Shown here in pieces: positions 37,956-46,332 of a stretch of 64,000 nucleotides of DNA. The stretch comes from Salinarchaeum sp. IM2453. GTDB taxonomy: Archaea; Halobacteriota; Halobacteria; Halobacteriales; Salinarchaeaceae. Both the position numbers and the translations under genes were made by a program. Numbering within the stretch: the first letter of the stretch is position 1; the number at the start of each line of letters is the position of its first letter. The notes under the pieces were generated by a model that saw only the letters and a list, made by a program, of their open reading frames with translations, ran no database searches and was not told where the DNA came from. The stretch lies in assembly GCF_019693215.1 (NCBI RefSeq), contig NZ_CP081183.1, positions 1,119,226 through 1,183,225 on the forward strand. The letters are read 5' to 3'.

Positions 37956-38103
37956 GCCCGGGTGGCTTAGCTGGACATAGCGCCGCACTCATAGGGTTTC
38001 GAGCTTCGGTGCGGCATTTCAGTCCATGTCTCTCACTTCGAGGCCCGCCGAGCCTCGTACCTGGGACATGCGGAGATCGAGGGTTCGAACCCCTCCCCGG
38101 GCA
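37956..38103 (+). tRNA. Elongator tRNA-Met (anticodon CAU) with a 74-nt intron
   Basis: The acceptor stem is GCCCGGG (37956-37962) with CCCGGGC (38096-38102), discriminator A at 38103. The T arm GAGGG-TTCGAAC-CCCTC is intact. The anticodon stem CCGCA (37983-37987) pairs with TGCGG (38069-38073). The anticodon CAT is at 37990-37992. A 74-nt intron (37994-38067) sits after position 37, the standard archaeal site, and ends in sequence able to form a bulge-helix-bulge. Haloarchaeal elongator tRNA-Met genes are known for introns of this length. CCA is not encoded. Confidence 0.93.
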
Positions 38104-38328: not shown

Positions 38329-39582
38329 TCAGCACCACCGCTCATACTGATAACATCGTGCTGGATTATGTGGTTGTGGTTCTCGCTCGGTATCATCATA
38401 TGCTGCCCGGTGTTCTTCGTAGTCAATGAATAACTCTCCTTCAGGATCAAAATCCCGGCTCAGAGCACTTTCTGCCTGTTTCTTGTTCCATGACTCAAGA
38501 TGGTTTACTGCTGTCTCAGTGTCAATCTCTGTTAATTCTAAGTGTTTTTTACAGTCACGGAGTATTTCCCCTCCGACATCACTTCGCGCAATCAATGTTG
38601 AGTGACCGCTCTGGCTTCCGATTGTTCCAGCACTGATATCCGCGGCTTTTCCGACAAAGTCTGCACACTCATCACATCCAGGCATTGTCGGAGCGTCATT
38701 ACCCGACACCTCTATCGTAATTGTCTCACTGGATTTTGTTTGAATCCGCAGTCCATCTCCCACCAGCGATAGAGATGAAACTTCTGATGGACGTACACCG
38801 GCGTCAATTAGTGTTGACCGGAGGTGTTCGTATTCAAAGCTCTGTGTACACATTAATGCGATTGTTAACGTGATATGCTGTAGATGTGAATCACGCCCAA
38901 ATTCTTGTAACGATCTTGCTCCCGTGATAACACAGGGTGTTCCAACCAGTGCTATGTCGGGGTCAGTAAGATCGGACTTAGCAACTAACTCCTCGACCCG
39001 ACCTAACTGCATCATTTGTGTAAATACGCTTCCAGCTGTCTCTGCTAGCTCTTCTTTTGTTGTTACTAACCGAGACTGCCCTTTCAATGGCTTATCCGGG
39101 TCTTCTTGGGCAACGACTGCTCCGTCTATTACTCCCGTCTCAAGTAGTCTTGCTAGTAATCCTGTAACTGCACCCCCATTCTGGCCACGGGTTTGTAATA
39201 TCTCATTTGCTGCTCTTGCAGCATATGTCACTTGAGCTCTACCACCTGAACGATCTTGGATGATATCATTTGCCCGTTCATATCGCATTCCACTCCGTGG
39301 GCAAAAGTCCCAACAAAGCGAACATCCTGTGCACATTTTGACCAGTGTTGGTCGTCCATCAAGTTCGTCAACACCAATCGAACCGGAAGGACAGGCCGCT
39401 TCACAGGTTCCACACTGAATACATCGGTCTGCCTCAATTACTGCTTCATCGAGGTCGCGAAACCAAATTTTTCCGCGTGGATCGGCTATCTCTTTTGCAT
39501 CTCGTGGATCATCTCCGATCGTTGGGATTCGTGGCTGTCGGTCCGTGTCTGTCGTGGTGTTATGTGAATTCTTTTGTGACAT
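38329..39582 (-). CDS. FrhB-like F420 oxidoreductase with two 4Fe-4S clusters
   Basis: 417 aa, 3 bp after the sulfite reductase gene; a ribosome binding site AAAGGAGGT lies inside that gene's end. The N-terminal ferredoxin has two clusters: CIQCGTCEAACP (Cys 54, 57, 60, 64) and CTGCSLCWDFCP (Cys 84, 87, 90, 94). The rest is an FrhB/FpoF-type F420-binding domain, recognisable by GGAVTGLLARLLETGVIDGAVV, IALVGTPCVITGARSL and GCDECADFVGKAADISAGTIG. These subunits move electrons from F420H2 to Fe-S clusters. Next to a sulfite reductase, it is the probable electron donor, a split counterpart of methanogen Fsr. Confidence 0.86.
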   Translation of the reverse strand: MSQKNSHNTTTDTDRQPRIPTIGDDPRDAKEIADPRGKIWFRDLDEAVIEADRCIQCGTCEAACPSGSIGVDELDGRPTLVKMCTGCSLCWDFCPRSGMRYERANDIIQDRSGGRAQVTYAARAANEILQTRGQNGGAVTGLLARLLETGVIDGAVVAQEDPDKPLKGQSRLVTTKEELAETAGSVFTQMMQLGRVEELVAKSDLTDPDIALVGTPCVITGARSLQEFGRDSHLQHITLTIALMCTQSFEYEHLRSTLIDAGVRPSEVSSLSLVGDGLRIQTKSSETITIEVSGNDAPTMPGCDECADFVGKAADISAGTIGSQSGHSTLIARSDVGGEILRDCKKHLELTEIDTETAVNHLESWNKKQAESALSRDFDPEGELFIDYEEHRAAYDDTEREPQPHNPARCYQYERWC

Positions 39583-39585
39583 CTC

Positions 39586-41967
39586 TTAATTACCTCCTTT
39601 CGTTTTTCCCATTGTAGGGGCCGGTTGATCGTCTCCGGACACTAATTGCTGCAGTTGCTGATATGAGGTTTCTTCAACCCACTCTGAAAATGATTGGCCA
39701 GTACTCACTTTCCCATATTCGGTGAGCATTCGCTTGATTATCTCTGGAACATCTGCTGTTGGTACACTTCCAGCGACCCAGTCTACAAACTGATTGCGGC
39801 CGAGATCACCTCCCAATCCCAAGTCGACGGCTGGCTTGGACCCATTGACCGTTGGGATTTCTTCTCCTCGCATTCCAAAGTCAGCAAGTTGCGGGTGTGC
39901 ACATGACGCTGAACACCCACTCAAGTGCGCTCGAACAGCGTCTAGGTTTACTTCTCCTTCATATTCTTCTTCATACCACTCATCAAGCTCACGAGCCCAT
40001 CTTGCCGCCCTATTTTTTGTGTTAATTATTCCATATGTACAATATTCTTTTCCTGTACAAGCAATTACCCCTCGTTCAAATGGTCCTGGATCTGGGCTAT
40101 ACTTTTTGATCACTGGCTCTTGGCGAACTTCATCAACCTTCTCTGGTTCTACGCCTGGAATTATCAGATTTTGTGCCGGTGATAACCGAATTTCTCCATT
40201 TCCGTATTTCGCAGCGATATCTGCAATCTCAGTAAGGTCAGTGCCAGACATTCTGCCGACGGGCACGTTTAGTCCAATATACTGATTTCCATCCTCTTGC
40301 TCGTGAATACCAACGTGATCACCCCGATATTGCTCTGTTAATCCGTCACCAGATGAATTTATTTCAAAGTCACATCTTGCTACAATTTCACTTCGTACTT
40401 CGTCGATTCCCCATTCGTCAACCAGAACCCCGAGCCGGTTGACAGCCGTGTCAAGATAACTTCCATGGTCAATAAACATATCTGCCGTTGCCTCAACGAC
40501 ATCCCGGATCTGTTCTTCCTGAACGAACAAATCAAGGTTTCGTGCTTTCATCGGTCCATCAGATAATCGCCCTCCGATATGTACATTGAAACCAAACTTA
40601 GCACCTTTCTCCGCAGGAAGGAACGTAAGATCGTGTATCTGTCCTCTAGCACAATTCTCATGACATCCTGTAATTGAGACCTTGAGCTTTCGCGGCAAAT
40701 TTGCATATCGCTCATCTCCAAGGAAGTAATCTGAAATATCCGTCGCGGTTGGGTGGACGTCAACAGACTCCTCTGATGTGAGTCCTGACACCGGACAAGT
40801 GACAACATTTCGAACCGAGTTTCCACCCGATTGTAGTGTTGTTAGTCCCACATCGTCATACCGGTCCCAGATCTCCGGCACGTCTTTCATCTGGACCCAG
40901 TGCATCTGAATACCCTGACGTGTTGTGATATCAAGATAGCCGTCACCAAATTCTGGATTTTGGGCTTTACCTCCGTGTTCTTCTGGTGCCCGGGCATACT
41001 TATCTGCGACCTCACCAATTACCTTGGCCTGTTCGGCGGTCAGCTTTCCCCCCGGAACTTTTGTCCTGAACATGAAGTATCCCCGATGCTTCTGATGATA
41101 CATCCCAACTAATTTCAACCGCCCAATTGCATCTTCTCCTAGGTCATCAACAAAACCGGTAAAGCTACGGTGAGACTGTACCTCCTCTTTAAGTCCCAGT
41201 GGACTCCACCCCCGATCCTGTTCTCGAATCCAGTCGGTCAGACTCCCCTCATATACTGATATATCTGTGTATCCAAGCTCAGCTAACACACTATATGTAT
41301 GACTCAATCGTCGGGCTGTGTTACAATACAGGGTAATCTTTTTATCTTTTGTTATGCCTCTGTCAGCTAACAGAGAAAAAATCTCTGATCTCTCACATAA
41401 TTGTCCATCTTGGATAAAGTCTTCCCAGCTTACCTGCACTGCTCCTGGGATTGAAGCTGATTCGTATTCGGCGCGTGACCGTGTGTCTACAAGTATCTGA
41501 TCGTCATCATCAACTGCGTTTTCGACAGCATTCCGGTCAACAATTGGATCTCCAGGTTCTGATGCGGTATAATCACTCCTTGCTGCTGTCTGCTCGCCTG
41601 ACTCAAGATCGTATTTTTCGCTCCAAGCCTCAAACCCTCCATCTAAGACATATAACTCTCCGTCGTGTCCGAATGCTTGTGCAGTTAACAGTACTCGAGC
41701 AGCATATACCCCCGGTGCGTCATCATACGCGACGACCGTATCGTCAGGACTAATTCCCGATTCACTGAATATTGTCTCAAACGTGTCCTTGTCCGGTAAG
41801 TGTCCGGCTAGTGATCCTGAAGGATTTCTGACCTCTTCGTATGGGATGTTTACCGCAGTTGGTATGTGACCAATTCGCCGAAACGGACCTGTGTCGCGAA
41901 CATCAATAATTACCGCGTCTTCTTGATGCTCTGCAAGCCAATCAATATCTACAAAACCACTAATCAT
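39586..41967 (-). CDS. Tandem rhodanese fused to siroheme sulfite/nitrite reductase
   Basis: 793 aa from the ATG at 41967 (MISGFVDIDW); the upstream extension to 42036 is unlikely. Residues 1-125 and 145-265 are two rhodanese domains. The first has Asp (VAYDDAPG) where the catalytic Cys would be; the second has Cys215 in LYCNTARR, so only the second can be active. Residues about 285-793 form a sulfite/nitrite reductase with two ferredoxin-like halves and the 4Fe-4S-siroheme ligands ACTGKEYC (about 634) and HLSGCSASCAHP (about 679). The reaction would be six-electron reduction of sulfite to sulfide. The rhodanese may supply or accept sulfur, coupling thiosulfate to the enzyme. Confidence 0.88.
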   Translation of the reverse strand: MISGFVDIDWLAEHQEDAVIIDVRDTGPFRRIGHIPTAVNIPYEEVRNPSGSLAGHLPDKDTFETIFSESGISPDDTVVAYDDAPGVYAARVLLTAQAFGHDGELYVLDGGFEAWSEKYDLESGEQTAARSDYTASEPGDPIVDRNAVENAVDDDDQILVDTRSRAEYESASIPGAVQVSWEDFIQDGQLCERSEIFSLLADRGITKDKKITLYCNTARRLSHTYSVLAELGYTDISVYEGSLTDWIREQDRGWSPLGLKEEVQSHRSFTGFVDDLGEDAIGRLKLVGMYHQKHRGYFMFRTKVPGGKLTAEQAKVIGEVADKYARAPEEHGGKAQNPEFGDGYLDITTRQGIQMHWVQMKDVPEIWDRYDDVGLTTLQSGGNSVRNVVTCPVSGLTSEESVDVHPTATDISDYFLGDERYANLPRKLKVSITGCHENCARGQIHDLTFLPAEKGAKFGFNVHIGGRLSDGPMKARNLDLFVQEEQIRDVVEATADMFIDHGSYLDTAVNRLGVLVDEWGIDEVRSEIVARCDFEINSSGDGLTEQYRGDHVGIHEQEDGNQYIGLNVPVGRMSGTDLTEIADIAAKYGNGEIRLSPAQNLIIPGVEPEKVDEVRQEPVIKKYSPDPGPFERGVIACTGKEYCTYGIINTKNRAARWARELDEWYEEEYEGEVNLDAVRAHLSGCSASCAHPQLADFGMRGEEIPTVNGSKPAVDLGLGGDLGRNQFVDWVAGSVPTADVPEIIKRMLTEYGKVSTGQSFSEWVEETSYQQLQQLVSGDDQPAPTMGKTKGGN

Positions 41968-42486: not shown

Positions 42487-43458
42487 ATGTCTCGACAATT
42501 TCCTGAATATGTTTCCGTCGATTATGACGATGGCACAGATACGAGCCCAGATGACATTCCCGGGCTCCAGAACAAAATCGAGAAAGCAATTGATGTTGTT
42601 TATGAAGGACTGACTCAGTACCAACGACCAGCTGTCATGTGGACTGGTGGCAAAGATTCCACATTGACATTGTATTTCATCGCTGAAGTTGTTGAACGAT
42701 ATGACTTGGATGCCCCTCCAGCAGTTTTTATTGATCACTTCCAGCACTTTGATGAAATACACTCATTCGTAGAAACATGGGCTGAGCGATGGGGGGTAGA
42801 TCTCATATACGCTCGCAATGAAAATGTTGGTGAATACGTCAATACTCATGACCTTGAACCAGGTGATGAAATTCCTGTTGATGCTTTAGATGAACACAAC
42901 CAGCATCATATTCGTAATATCCTCGAGTACGAGGAGGAGACGTTTCCTTTCCTTCTTGACACCTATGTCGGTAACCACCTATTGAAGACTGTTGCGCTTA
43001 ATGATACGCTCGAAGAATACAACTTTGACAGTGTCATTAGTGGAGTTCGATGGGATGAACAAGAAGCACGTGCAAGTGAGACATTTTTCTCCCCTCGTCA
43101 TGATCCTGACACGTATCCTCCTCATGACCGGGTCCATCCGATCCTGCAATTTACCGAACGGGATGTCTGGGATACCTTTTGGCACTATGTTGTCCCTGAT
43201 GTTGTCGATGAGTACCCGGAAGAGGGATACACTCCTGAGTCGAGTGCTGACCTTCCAGATGGAGTTTCTAAAGAAGATTTACCGATCTCTCCAAAATACT
43301 TCGAAGGATTTCGATCACTCGGGAGTGAGATATCAACAGACAAAACATCAACTCACCCGGCATGGTTACAGGATCTTGAATCTACAACTGAACGTGCTGG
43401 TCGAGCGCAGGACAAAGAAGACCTCATGGAACGGCTTCGCGATCTCGGATATATGTAG
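42487..43458 (+). CDS. PAPS reductase / CysD-family ATP-pyrophosphatase
   Basis: 323 aa. The PP-loop motif WTGGKDSTL is at about residues 53-61, with SGVRWDEQEARASE and VHPILQFTERDVWDTFW characteristic of CysD/CysH-type enzymes. The C-terminus FRSLGSEISTDKTSTHPAW and ERAGRAQDKEDLMERLRDLGYM matches the CysD tail, and the ECGIH Cys motif of PAPS reductase is absent. It either adenylylates sulfate or acts on adenylylsulfate. Beside sulfite reductase and the siroheme operon, sulfate assimilation is the natural role. A DndC-like role in DNA modification was considered and rejected. Confidence 0.85.
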   Translation: MSRQFPEYVSVDYDDGTDTSPDDIPGLQNKIEKAIDVVYEGLTQYQRPAVMWTGGKDSTLTLYFIAEVVERYDLDAPPAVFIDHFQHFDEIHSFVETWAERWGVDLIYARNENVGEYVNTHDLEPGDEIPVDALDEHNQHHIRNILEYEEETFPFLLDTYVGNHLLKTVALNDTLEEYNFDSVISGVRWDEQEARASETFFSPRHDPDTYPPHDRVHPILQFTERDVWDTFWHYVVPDVVDEYPEEGYTPESSADLPDGVSKEDLPISPKYFEGFRSLGSEISTDKTSTHPAWLQDLESTTERAGRAQDKEDLMERLRDLGYM

Positions 43459-43785: not shown

Positions 43786-44400
43786 TCATTTTATGTCGAT
43801 GATCTCTCGTGCGATTTCGAGCCCTTTGTCTTGGTTATTCGGAAGTTGCTCCCAGACTCGTTCAGAATCCATCACCTTCCACAGGAGCTGTTTTCGCTGC
43901 TGCTGATCTGAGATTTCTTTCTTTAGTGCCTCCCGTAACTCCATCTGAATTTCTGCCATAGCATCAGCCTCCTCTATTACTGGCGTCAACTCCAGTCGCA
44001 AATGCTTTGTTGTCGCCGGACTCGCTCCTCCCGTTGCGATTGCAACTGATACGTGGTCACCATCGATATGGCTCGGAACAACTATATCGTTTGGTTGGTC
44101 TACTCGATTTACAAGTATATCTCGTTGATTTGCTGCAGTAACAATGTTTTCGTTAACCTCCTCGCTATCTGTCGCAGCAATAACAAGATATGCATCAGTA
44201 ATAATTTCGTGAATATTTAATTCAGTTACTCTCTTCGTGATGCATGTACACGGAACCTCATCAAATCCTTCTGCAAAAGACTCGGCAACCACCGTTACCG
44301 ATGCTTCCTGTACGAACCGCTTAGCTTTCCGAAGTGCAACTGAGCCTCCTCCAATAATAACAACTTCCTTATCTTTAAAATCATGGAATAATGGGATCAT
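43786..44400 (-). CDS. sirC: Precorrin-2 dehydrogenase (siroheme synthase, SirC/Met8-like)
   Basis: 204 aa. It oxidises precorrin-2 to sirohydrochlorin with NAD. The Rossmann motif VVIIGGGSVALRKAKRF is at residues 13-29, followed by DAYLVIAATDSEEVNENI and the catalytic region VPSHIDGDHVSVAIATGGASPATT. Short helical C-terminus. It follows cobA by 12 bp and forms the end of the cbiX-cobA-sirC operon, providing siroheme for the neighbouring sulfite reductase. Confidence 0.9.
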   Translation of the reverse strand: MIPLFHDFKDKEVVIIGGGSVALRKAKRFVQEASVTVVAESFAEGFDEVPCTCITKRVTELNIHEIITDAYLVIAATDSEEVNENIVTAANQRDILVNRVDQPNDIVVPSHIDGDHVSVAIATGGASPATTKHLRLELTPVIEEADAMAEIQMELREALKKEISDQQQRKQLLWKVMDSERVWEQLPNNQDKGLEIAREIIDIK

Positions 44401-44412
44401 TATGTGTTCTTT

Positions 44413-45228
44413 TCACTTAATAAGATAGTCAGACACAGAATCTCGTATGTTCACAACGCTACCAACGATTGTGACTGCCGGTGGCTCAATGTTTTGTTTA
44501 TCTCTTTTGCTAACAATTGTTTCGAGTGTACCTGTAATGACTTGTTCGCTGTCCCACGTTGCCTTCTCAACCATTCCTGCTGGTGTCTCCTTTGAAACTC
44601 CATAATCCTGAAGTGCTTGAACAATCTCTGGCAATTTAGCAACACCCATTAAAATAATAACTGTTCCCCCGGCGATTACTGTATCAGCAACTGCTTCCCA
44701 GTCGACTGTGCTTCCACGCTTTTCTGATGCTTGGTGGCCAGTTACTATCATGAGGTTTGATGAATAGTCGCGGTGTGTCAGCGGGATACCACTCTCTGTT
44801 GCCGCTGCGAGGACACTGGAAATACCTGCAACTGTCTCAAATTCAATCTCATGTTCTGCAAGATGTTCTGTTTCTTCTCCCCCTCGGCCAAACACCGTTG
44901 GGTCTCCAGACTTCAATCGAACTACATGTTCTCCTTTTTCTGCTTTGTTCTTCATCAGTTCATTAATCTGTTCTTGTGTCATCGGGTCTGGCTGACGCTT
45001 TCCGACATCAACTTTTTCCGTGTTCTCAGGAATTTCATCAATTAAATCGTTTGTTGTCAGAGAGTCATATAGAACAACATCTGCTGTCTGTAATCGCTTC
45101 CATGCCCGACGTGTCAATAAGTCTGGATCACCTGGTCCTGCCCCGACGAGAGAAACTTTTCCCTCGCTTGTTTCTTCCGATGATGCTCCCGACTGGGAGC
45201 TATCTTTATCTGCTTTCTCTTTAATCAT
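44413..45228 (-). CDS. cobA: Uroporphyrinogen-III C-methyltransferase
   Basis: 271 aa, somewhat longer than typical through a polar N-terminal tail of 25 residues. It transfers two methyl groups from SAM to uroporphyrinogen III, giving precorrin-2. Signature motifs: VSLVGAGPGDPDLLTRRAWK, VVLYDSL, VVRLKSGDPTVFGRGGEE and GIPLTHRDYSSNLMIVTGH. Middle gene of the siroheme operon, 83 bp after cbiX. Confidence 0.95.
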   Translation of the reverse strand: MIKEKADKDSSQSGASSEETSEGKVSLVGAGPGDPDLLTRRAWKRLQTADVVLYDSLTTNDLIDEIPENTEKVDVGKRQPDPMTQEQINELMKNKAEKGEHVVRLKSGDPTVFGRGGEETEHLAEHEIEFETVAGISSVLAAATESGIPLTHRDYSSNLMIVTGHQASEKRGSTVDWEAVADTVIAGGTVIILMGVAKLPEIVQALQDYGVSKETPAGMVEKATWDSEQVITGTLETIVSKRDKQNIEPPAVTIVGSVVNIRDSVSDYLIK

Positions 45229-45311: not shown

Positions 45312-46097
45312 TTAGCTTTCTTCATCATATCTTTTTGCCCGGTCAACAAGGACGTCAATTAATTGATCATCAATTCTGGCCCCGACCACATCTGTTGTGA
45401 TGACTCGGCACGTATCATTCCCTTTTCTGAACTCTCTTGCCTTGCTTCGTATCCTGTTAGCGATTATCCCGTCACCAACTGTATACGGGACAACAATTGT
45501 ACTACGCGTTTCGTCTGTTGTTGTCGTGTCTAATACCGACTCCAACGATGGACTTCCCATAGTGAGAAATGCTGGTTTGACTTGGCCCCAATCTATCTTC
45601 TGCTGTAACTGCTTGCTAATTTCTTTAGCTGTTTTATTCGCATCCTTGTCGCTTGTTCCTTTCGGACAAAAAATAACCGTTGTCTCGGATGAATCCTGCT
45701 CTGAGAGTAACTCTGATCTTGCATCCTCAACGCGCTGTCTAACAATCTCAACCATTTTTGGATGTGATCCCAGATGCTTCCCTCGTTTAATTGTAATATT
45801 TGGATTATCTCGCTTTATTTGTTGTATTGCTTCTGGGATATCCTGTTTAATGTGTGTTGCTGCAAACAATAAAAGCGGTAAAATGGTAATACTTTGACAG
45901 TTCTCAATCAGTGACTTGACTCCTGATTGCACATCTGGGTCAGATTTTTCAATAAATCCTACCTGTACCGGTTTCCCAATTCGGGACTCTAGCCTCCTGC
46001 CAACACGGCGTACTAACTCATTTGACTCTTCAACTGATGATCCATGTCCAACAAGCACAATTCCATCGGGCACGCCCTGTTGTTCTCTTGTACTCAT
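45312..46097 (-). CDS. cbiX: CbiX/SirB-type sirohydrochlorin chelatase
   Basis: 261 aa from the ATG at 46097 (MSTREQQGVPDG); a longer frame starts at 46187. It inserts iron or cobalt into sirohydrochlorin. The metal-binding His is in IVLVGHGSSVEESN at the N-terminus, with a second His in FAATHIKQDI (about 74). The second half repeats the chelatase fold but has CPKGTSDKDA in place of the HG motif, so only the first half is likely to bind metal. First gene of the siroheme operon. For the sulfite reductase next door the product would be siroheme. Confidence 0.88.
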   Translation of the reverse strand: MSTREQQGVPDGIVLVGHGSSVEESNELVRRVGRRLESRIGKPVQVGFIEKSDPDVQSGVKSLIENCQSITILPLLLFAATHIKQDIPEAIQQIKRDNPNITIKRGKHLGSHPKMVEIVRQRVEDARSELLSEQDSSETTVIFCPKGTSDKDANKTAKEISKQLQQKIDWGQVKPAFLTMGSPSLESVLDTTTTDETRSTIVVPYTVGDGIIANRIRSKAREFRKGNDTCRVITTDVVGARIDDQLIDVLVDRAKRYDEES

Positions 46098-46332
46098 AAT
46101 TACATAGTGTCTGTTTTCGCTCAATCCGTGTATTTCGTTGTTCCTGATTTTATCGAGTGTATTCAAAGAGTGTGCTGTCGCTGTCAAGATCGGCCACTTT
46201 CTATGACAATCTCTGGACTATCTAGAATCCAAACTCTTTCGTACGCTTCTGCCGTTATTCACTCACAGACGATAGATAGAAGATAGTGTCCTTCCACATC
46301 GATCTCCTGTGTTTTCCTAACTACAATTGAAC

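Follow-up and report, generated by a model that had tools for sequence, protein, structure and literature searches.

Two adjacent genes in the analysed window (64,000 nucleotides of the Salinarchaeum sp. IM2453 genome) are predicted to encode a soluble F420H2-dependent assimilatory-type sulfite reductase (aFsr) combined with a sulfurtransferase module, the rhodanese of which would act on thiosulfate; for this reading as a whole, the chances appear evenly balanced. Domains, gene pairing and the intact siroheme, sulfite-binding and rhodanese residues are given by the sequence (Table 1); the F420 donor, the sulfite substrate and the use of thiosulfate by the rhodanese are what we infer. Haloarchaeal pairs of this kind were proposed in 2012 by Susanti & Mukhopadhyay as aFsr-alpha/aFsr-beta, a putative F420H2-dependent assimilatory sulfite reductase (PMC3448663), sharing with the pair studied here the adjacent genes, an aSir-type reductase and a separately encoded Fsr-N homolog that bears two additional ferredoxin clusters. 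The present form differs by its N-terminal tandem rhodanese, which is unmentioned in PMC3448663. A 2024 survey describes, in the portion consulted, the same domain fusion in Halobacteria as a NirA-rhodanese family (cluster 195.2, 19 of 529 halobacterial NirA), that portion not discussing an FrhB partner, an F420 link or conservation of catalytic residues (PMC11237513). A rhodanese fusion linked to an FrhB partner was found neither in PMC3448663 nor in this portion of PMC11237513. While the split pair and the NirA-rhodanese fusion are already known, the aFsr-type pair bearing the rhodanese fusion is a new variant. Biochemistry for any aFsr was not found in the literature.

Table 1. Features of the predicted aFsr pair and its neighbourhood (positions in the window)
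Feature	Position	Strand	Basis
aFsr-beta, dicluster ferredoxin and FrhB-type F420H2 dehydrogenase subunit (predicted), 417 aa	38329..39582	-	Pfam FrhB_N/FrhB_C, Fer4
Two 4Fe-4S ferredoxin motifs (CxxCxxCxxxCP ... CxxCxxCxxxCP), residues 54-94 of aFsr-beta	39301..39423	-	8 Cys
FrhB_N, residues 119-191 of aFsr-beta, FAD-binding GQ[ND]GGxVT region	39010..39228	-	Pfam
FrhB_C, residues 210-354 of aFsr-beta, 4Fe-4S Cys and ADIS[AV]G loop	38521..38955	-	Pfam, alignment
aFsr-alpha, N-terminal tandem rhodanese: rhodanese-rhodanese-NirA/aSir siroheme sulfite reductase (predicted), 793 aa	39586..41967	-	Pfam, fold matches
Rhodanese domain 1, residues 9-118, without active-site Cys, structural domain	41614..41943	-	PF00581
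Rhodanese domain 2, residues 147-248, catalytic domain, loop YCNTARRLS	41224..41529	-	PF00581
Codon of catalytic Cys215, rhodanese domain 2	41323..41325	-	Cys in 25/25 fused homologs
First NIR_SIR repeat, residues 382-531	40375..40824	-	PF01077
Second NIR_SIR repeat, residues 632-776, siroheme-4Fe-4S Cys 637, 643, 685, 689	39640..40074	-	PF01077
Divergent neighbour, N-type ATP pyrophosphatase, CysD-like	42487..43458	+	PF01507; top NCBIfam CysD PRK05253 88.6 bits, below cut-off
Precorrin-2 dehydrogenase, siroheme synthesis	43786..44400	-	TIGR01470 above cut-off
Uroporphyrinogen-III C-methyltransferase, siroheme synthesis	44413..45228	-	TIGR01469 above cut-off
CbiX/CfbA-type sirohydrochlorin chelatase	45312..46187	-	PF01903

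The aFsr-alpha protein (P0001, start codon ATG) is the product of the sole NIR_SIR gene of the host genome and comprises two PF00581 rhodanese domains, as the earlier note had claimed, followed by NIR_SIR_ferr half domains and two NIR_SIR repeats (E 4.5e-35, 1.2e-41, 1.2e-48). With these two repeats and its CxxxxxC...CxxxC pattern it is of the NirA/aSir type by which the 2012 aFsr was delimited. The closest solved folds are those of tobacco Nii and Mycobacterium tuberculosis NirA, the latter being the best match (1ZJ8; E 1.1e-44, TMt 0.85). This sulfite reductase is ferredoxin-dependent and has neither FrhB partner nor rhodanese, whereas the window reductase has both. The first repeat contains the anion residues R386, K427 and K429 as well as extra cysteines (391, 435, 439), and R350 lies just ahead of it; these four anion residues, forming a sulfite-type R/R/K/K site, and the four siroheme-4Fe-4S cysteines of the second repeat are invariant among 30 aligned relatives. 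The nearby siroheme synthesis genes were likewise counted in favour of a siroheme sulfite reductase.

The annotation as nitrite reductase NirA agrees with the top NCBIfam match (ferredoxin-nitrite reductase PRK09566, below its cut-off) and with the in vitro reduction of both anions by siroheme reductases. However, the position corresponding to tobacco 226 is Lys in the window, in all examined sequences of clades A and B and in all FrhB-paired forms, while Asn, as in plant nitrite reductase, occupies it in haloarchaeal homologs that adjoin a molybdopterin oxidoreductase gene (L080) or an MFS gene (L094). Considering also the rhodanese fusion and the cysH/sat/cysC neighbours of bacterial forms, the nitrite reductase assignment is rejected as highly improbable on anion-site Lys and context, and sulfite is probably the substrate of the predicted reductase.

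The partner protein aFsr-beta (P0002; FrhB_FdhB_N 3.1e-21, FrhB_FdhB_C 5.8e-29) is encoded 3 bp downstream on the same minus strand, and its two N-terminal ferredoxin clusters (C54, C57, C60, C64 and C84, C87, C90, C94; 8/8 invariant in 32 relatives) together with the adjacent FrhB part correspond to the Fsr-N homolog of aFsr. The earlier description of an FrhB-type protein with two 4Fe-4S clusters directly behind a siroheme reductase is thus borne out by Pfam, Cys motifs and coordinates. Since C217, C245, C303 and C306 are invariant in the 32 relatives as well, a third cluster in the FrhB domain is likely. Such a combination of FrhB-type F420H2 oxidase (predicted in the case of aFsr-beta), N-terminal dicluster ferredoxin and siroheme sulfite reductase is shared with Fsr group I of Methanocaldococcus and Methanothermococcus (PMC10229431; 7NP8, 7NPA), and the earlier note regarded the pair as the same parts in two genes. 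In contrast to the single chain of Fsr, however, the window holds two ORFs separated by stop and 3 bp, and its reductase is a two-repeat NirA-type protein with rhodanese and no inserted ferredoxin, unlike the single-repeat, Dsr-like Fsr-C half with its inserted ferredoxin. The notion of a split Fsr was therefore rejected, since a NirA/aSir-type reductase implies that FrhB protein and reductase form an independent combination here, not a divided Fsr.

Pairing of the two genes is nearly general: 79 of 80 FrhB relatives have a reductase gene directly upstream, the remaining one being truncated by a contig end, so the lack of co-occurrence that would have counted against the pair was not observed. 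This supports the prediction of a functional FrhB-sulfite reductase pair. The rhodanese fusion is present in 12 of these 80 loci, all in Halobacteria. Fused pairs recur in 25 of 294 Halobacteria genomes (46-62% identity to the window reductase; SiR-FrhB gap -1 to +1 bp where measured), and the arrangement is therefore not due to chance. The window form falls in a separate clade A (support 0.999), and as 18 of the 25 genomes also hold an unfused pair, a separate role of the fused one is possible.

Several lines point to F420 as the probable electron donor of the predicted pair, in agreement with its earlier proposal as a plausible one. Top solved-structure matches of aFsr-beta are F420 enzymes (8RIU, 8RJA, 7NPA/7NP8, Frh), to which it is closest in both sequence and fold. 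The ferredoxin part of the aFsr-beta structure model is poor. The closest solved relative, the zeta subunit of the F420-reducing CODH of Ca. Ethanoperedens (8RIU_B, PMC11493965), also links F420 to another redox enzyme by means of a ferredoxin and an FrhB domain, but its partner is CO dehydrogenase and electrons flow towards F420. The GQ[ND]GGxVT motif is conserved in Fsr and 8RIU, too; the ADIS[AV]G loop aligns with the S209/V210 loop, which in FrhB adjoins the F420 ring (PMC3591093). The host genome contains cofH/cofG-type genes (CofH model match below its cut-off) and Fno above cut-off. The strongest evidence for F420 comes from actinobacterial relatives with cofD-cofC-cofE-cysH-SiR-FrhB-x-sat-cysC operons, one locus (L161) having cofD, cofC, cofE, sat, apsK and CysH all above NCBIfam cut-offs and others showing full or partial versions; these operons belong to unfused bacterial forms, not to the rhodanese clade.

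Alternatively, the FrhB subunit could pass electrons from ferredoxin to siroheme, as in the plant FrhB-family enzyme HCAR, a structural relative of aFsr-beta ranking behind the F420 enzymes. The Lys-rich GKGK loop, for which a role in binding the F420 phosphate has been proposed in FrhB, is indeed not conserved (VGDGL in aFsr-beta), and those related reductases that lack FrhB (clades C, D and E) presumably take ferredoxin directly. Yet ANME FsrII deviates at the same loop and uses F420H2 (PMC9295563), and FrhB would be superfluous in an enzyme driven by ferredoxin, to judge from the unpaired clades. Given in addition the F420-enzyme kinship and cofDCE within the same actinobacterial operon, a ferredoxin-fed FrhB subunit is considered unlikely.

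The rhodanese is the least certain point. Two domains with the catalytic Cys in the second only correspond to the tandem-domain (TST/MST) type, and neither in the window nor in clade A relatives does the loop of domain 1 contain Cys. Canonical loops read CG[SA]GVT in MST and CRKGVT in TST. The window loop CNTARRLS fits neither and is of the same type as in free-standing haloarchaeal tandem rhodaneses (46-47% identical). Cleavage of thiosulfate supplying sulfite to siroheme is favoured, even if thiosulfate as rhodanese substrate falls slightly short of an even chance. Instead, the rhodanese of the same F420-dependent reductase may serve the output or persulfide side: it would obtain sulfane sulfur from donors such as persulfides or compounds of the mercaptopyruvate type and hand it on to acceptors (tRNA thiolation, Moco, SAMP or Fe-S proteins), the reductase doing no more than recycle sulfite/persulfide by-products. 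The catalytic Cys is intact and the motif by itself is not diagnostic of a donor; fusion of the sulfur carrier ThiS to sulfite reductase is a bacterial precedent (PMC1779556). On the other hand, rhodaneses require sulfane sulfur and do not act on free sulfide, so that direct product capture is chemically awkward. Furthermore, neighbourhood clustering revealed no gene set kept beside the fused pair in clade A (neighbours partly annotated), nor was any of the searched sulfur genes conserved there beyond the pair itself. This output role is rated rather doubtful.

Thiosulfate use may also be viewed against the sulfur genes of the host, in whose genome recognisable ATP sulfurylase, CysN, APS kinase and CysH were not found, rendering the usual sulfate route to sulfite unlikely. 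A CysN candidate (G000:C1:231850) was dismissed, its sequence reading as elongation factor 1-alpha, and the divergent CysD-like neighbour was rejected as CysH, its CysH scores being weak and none over threshold. However, the same searches did not find Sat and CysH in Haloferax volcanii either, so the missing genes may reflect unrecognised haloarchaeal enzymes. A promoter/terminator scan of the locus performed no better than shuffles.

In the proposed thiosulfate-dependent mechanism, electrons would pass from NADPH via Fno to F420H2, to FAD and one 4Fe-4S cluster of the FrhB domain and, via the two ferredoxin clusters, to the siroheme-4Fe-4S of the NirA-type subunit, where sulfite would be reduced to sulfide with six electrons. 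Domain 1 of the rhodanese would be structural, while domain 2 most likely would take the sulfane sulfur of thiosulfate as persulfide on Cys215, setting sulfite free beside the siroheme pocket. The persulfide would then be reduced by thiols, so that both sulfur atoms would become sulfide, to be used in cysteine and Fe-S synthesis. More speculatively, one may envisage a channelled F420H2-driven assimilatory thiosulfate reductase, in which sulfite split off at Cys215 reaches the siroheme directly within one polypeptide chain and eight electrons convert both sulfur atoms to sulfide; this proposal is tentative and rather unlikely to hold in full. To our knowledge, it would, if true, be the first F420-dependent thiosulfate-using enzyme, and a sulfide source for haloarchaea without recognisable sulfate activation and CysH.

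What F420 does in haloarchaea has been called enigmatic, a single reaction having been reported (PMC8305020). The pair, and above all its actinobacterial cof-cysH-SiR-FrhB-sat-cysC relatives, turns the 2012 prediction into a testable claim of F420H2 participation in sulfur assimilation of aerobic archaea and bacteria, and the rhodanese clade may represent a thiosulfate route in genomes in which enzymes of the usual path from sulfate to sulfite were not found.

The 2.66-Mb genome of Salinarchaeum sp. IM2453 has a single NIR_SIR gene, whose product is the reductase aFsr-alpha (rhodanese-rhodanese-NirA/aSir). Domain matches and coordinates bear out the architecture proposed in an earlier note, i.e., two rhodanese domains N-terminal to a siroheme reductase, with the gene for the ferredoxin/FrhB protein aFsr-beta following after 3 bp. 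A TTG-start reading frame for aFsr-alpha (reaching 42036) is unlikely, since homology starts near the ATG at 41967. On the far side of aFsr-beta, an intron-containing tRNA (CAT anticodon; Rfam 51 bits, not called by ARAGORN with the settings used) resembles elongator tRNA-Met.

Features of the paired reductase genes, their surroundings and related loci
Feature	Coordinates	Strand/orientation	Description
aFsr-alpha, 793 aa	39586-41967	minus	two rhodanese domains, then half domains and two repeats of NirA-type siroheme reductase
aFsr-beta, 417 aa	38329-39582	minus	two ferredoxin-type 4Fe-4S motifs, FrhB_N, FrhB_C
CysD-like ATP pyrophosphatase gene	upstream of pair	divergent	
Three siroheme-synthesis genes	beyond CysD-like gene, upstream side of pair		
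tRNA with intron	37956-38103	plus	
Actinobacterial operon	L161:1095-9393		equivalents, complete or partial, in L138, L140, L142, L149, L151, L165, L169, L196
aFsr-beta remnant (L120)	G192:C1:1157000-1171000		frameshifted, without reductase
Third FrhB copy	G243:C1:435145-436311; G106:C7:49830-51017		41-43% identical

Strong aFsr-beta matches in 294 Halobacteria genomes fall into two clades, A with rhodanese-fused reductase (25 genomes, including the present one) and B with unfused reductase (82 genomes); 18 genomes possess both pairs and seven, Salinarchaeum sp. IM2453 among them, A only. In both clades the reductase gene is directly upstream of the FrhB gene wherever coordinates were compared. 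The same order was found in 79 of the best 80 loci kept after scanning bacteria and archaea at one genome per species, the remaining locus ending at a contig edge; the co-occurrence on which the earlier proposal depended is thus confirmed. Twelve of these 80 loci carry the rhodanese fusion (Halovenus, Natronoglomus, Natrarchaeobius, Natrinema, Natronomonas, Natronobiforma, Natronococcus and Halorhabdus), with gaps of -1 to +1 bp between the two genes, and no fused match was found outside Halobacteria in the phylum sample. In the reductase tree, clade A stands apart from every other group (support 0.999), and A and B cluster together to the exclusion of the unpaired reductases (0.979); this topology is compatible with a single pairing event and, later, a single rhodanese fusion. 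Judging from the remnant in genome G192, the rhodanese-type system appears to have been lost in some lineages. The third FrhB copy occurs in genomes already harbouring A and B pairs.

Across 30 aligned relatives, the siroheme-cluster cysteines (637, 643, 685, 689) and the anion-binding residues R350, R386, K427 and K429 of aFsr-alpha are invariant. In the alignment, K429 falls on N226 of tobacco nitrite reductase. Every A, B and unpaired C/E sequence has Lys at this position, but Asn occurs in a NirA group adjoining a molybdopterin oxidoreductase (L080) or, at another locus, an MFS gene (L094). With this Asn-bearing group as internal control, sulfite is favoured over nitrite as substrate. Haloarchaeal NirA homologues with a K-x-N anion site (L080-L083, L094, L095, L097), adjoined by a molybdopterin oxidoreductase or MFS gene in those checked, look like true nitrite reductases. 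Cys 391, 435 and 439 (often also 381) in the N-terminal repeat are nearly invariant in aFsr-alpha and missing from tobacco Nii; they may hold an additional 4Fe-4S cluster in an electron relay.

Both sequence and fold place aFsr-beta nearest to the F420-reducing subunits of CODH and Fwd from an ethanotroph (8RIU, 8RJA; PMC11493965); Fsr and Frh come next, and HCAR, a relative that does not use F420, ranks behind them. The lysine loop of FrhB, proposed to bind the F420 phosphate (PMC3591093), is not conserved, and F420 use is therefore unproven by residues alone; ANME FsrII, for which a positive-to-negative change has been reported here, uses F420H2 nonetheless (PMC9295563). CofH/CofG-type genes (CofH model match below its cut-off) and an Fno match above cut-off in the host genome make F420 synthesis and its NADPH-driven re-reduction probable. 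The strongest evidence for F420 as donor is the gene context of actinobacterial relatives, mostly Rubrobacter, with the order cofD-cofC-cofE-cysH-SiR-FrhB-x-sat-cysC. At L161, the matches to CofD, CofC, CofE, CysH, Sat and ApsK are all above the NCBIfam cut-offs; two acidimicrobial/actinomycete loci instead carry cysD-cysN. Gene x, between FrhB and sat, is conserved (113-120 aa). No description of this arrangement was found in the literature searched. The pair itself is real and conserved, and it very probably functions as an F420-linked sulfite reductase.

As to the origin of the sulfite, neither homomeric ATP sulfurylase nor CysH was found in the host genome, and APS kinase gave no convincing match; the best CysN match reads as EF-1alpha, and the gene adjoining the pair is CysD-like rather than CysH. 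Sat and CysH searches were likewise negative in Haloferax volcanii, so unrecognised haloarchaeal enzymes are possible. While about one third of Halobacteria genomes contain a paired sulfite reductase, CysH reaches threshold in only 5 of 294, and the sulfate-to-sulfite step of haloarchaea looks unexplained.

In the rhodanese module, Cys215 of domain 2 (loop YCNTARRLS) is retained in 25 of 25 fused homologues, and the active-site loop of domain 1 lacks Cys, as in two-domain sulfurtransferases. Free-standing haloarchaeal tandem rhodaneses (46-47% identical) share this loop type (YCNTARRISHT), and the fused module was therefore probably recruited from them; the two other tandem rhodaneses of the host have CRVGERSS and CGGGIAST loops. 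In the standard rhodanese reaction the persulfide stays on the enzyme and sulfite is released. Since such a module is fused to the reductase, thiosulfate would be the simplest sulfite source: the rhodanese would split it and the freed sulfite would serve the reductase domain.

The view of the pair as a split Fsr assigns it to the wrong lineage, since the reductase half of Fsr is a single-repeat unit (PMC10229431), in contrast to the two-repeat NirA/aSir protein aFsr-alpha. In 2012, aFsr-alpha/beta was proposed for haloarchaea and used to support an account of how Fsr originated, with rhodanese unmentioned in the main text (Susanti & Mukhopadhyay, PMC3448663); a 2024 fusion survey reports a rhodanese fusion in 19 of 529 NirA proteins from Halobacteria and suggests that it may act in sulfur metabolism (PMC11237513), and a 2021 F420 review gives Fsr for methanogens only (PMC8498797). 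Thus, the pair is known as a prediction and the rhodanese-NirA fusion as a statistic; the present analysis adds the combination of pair and fusion, the clade that has it, the conservation of catalytic residues and the bacterial operons with cof genes. The latter predict F420-dependent sulfate assimilation in the bacteria carrying them, and the rhodanese sets the clade A pair apart as a distinct variant with a sharp hypothesis, putative thiosulfate use.
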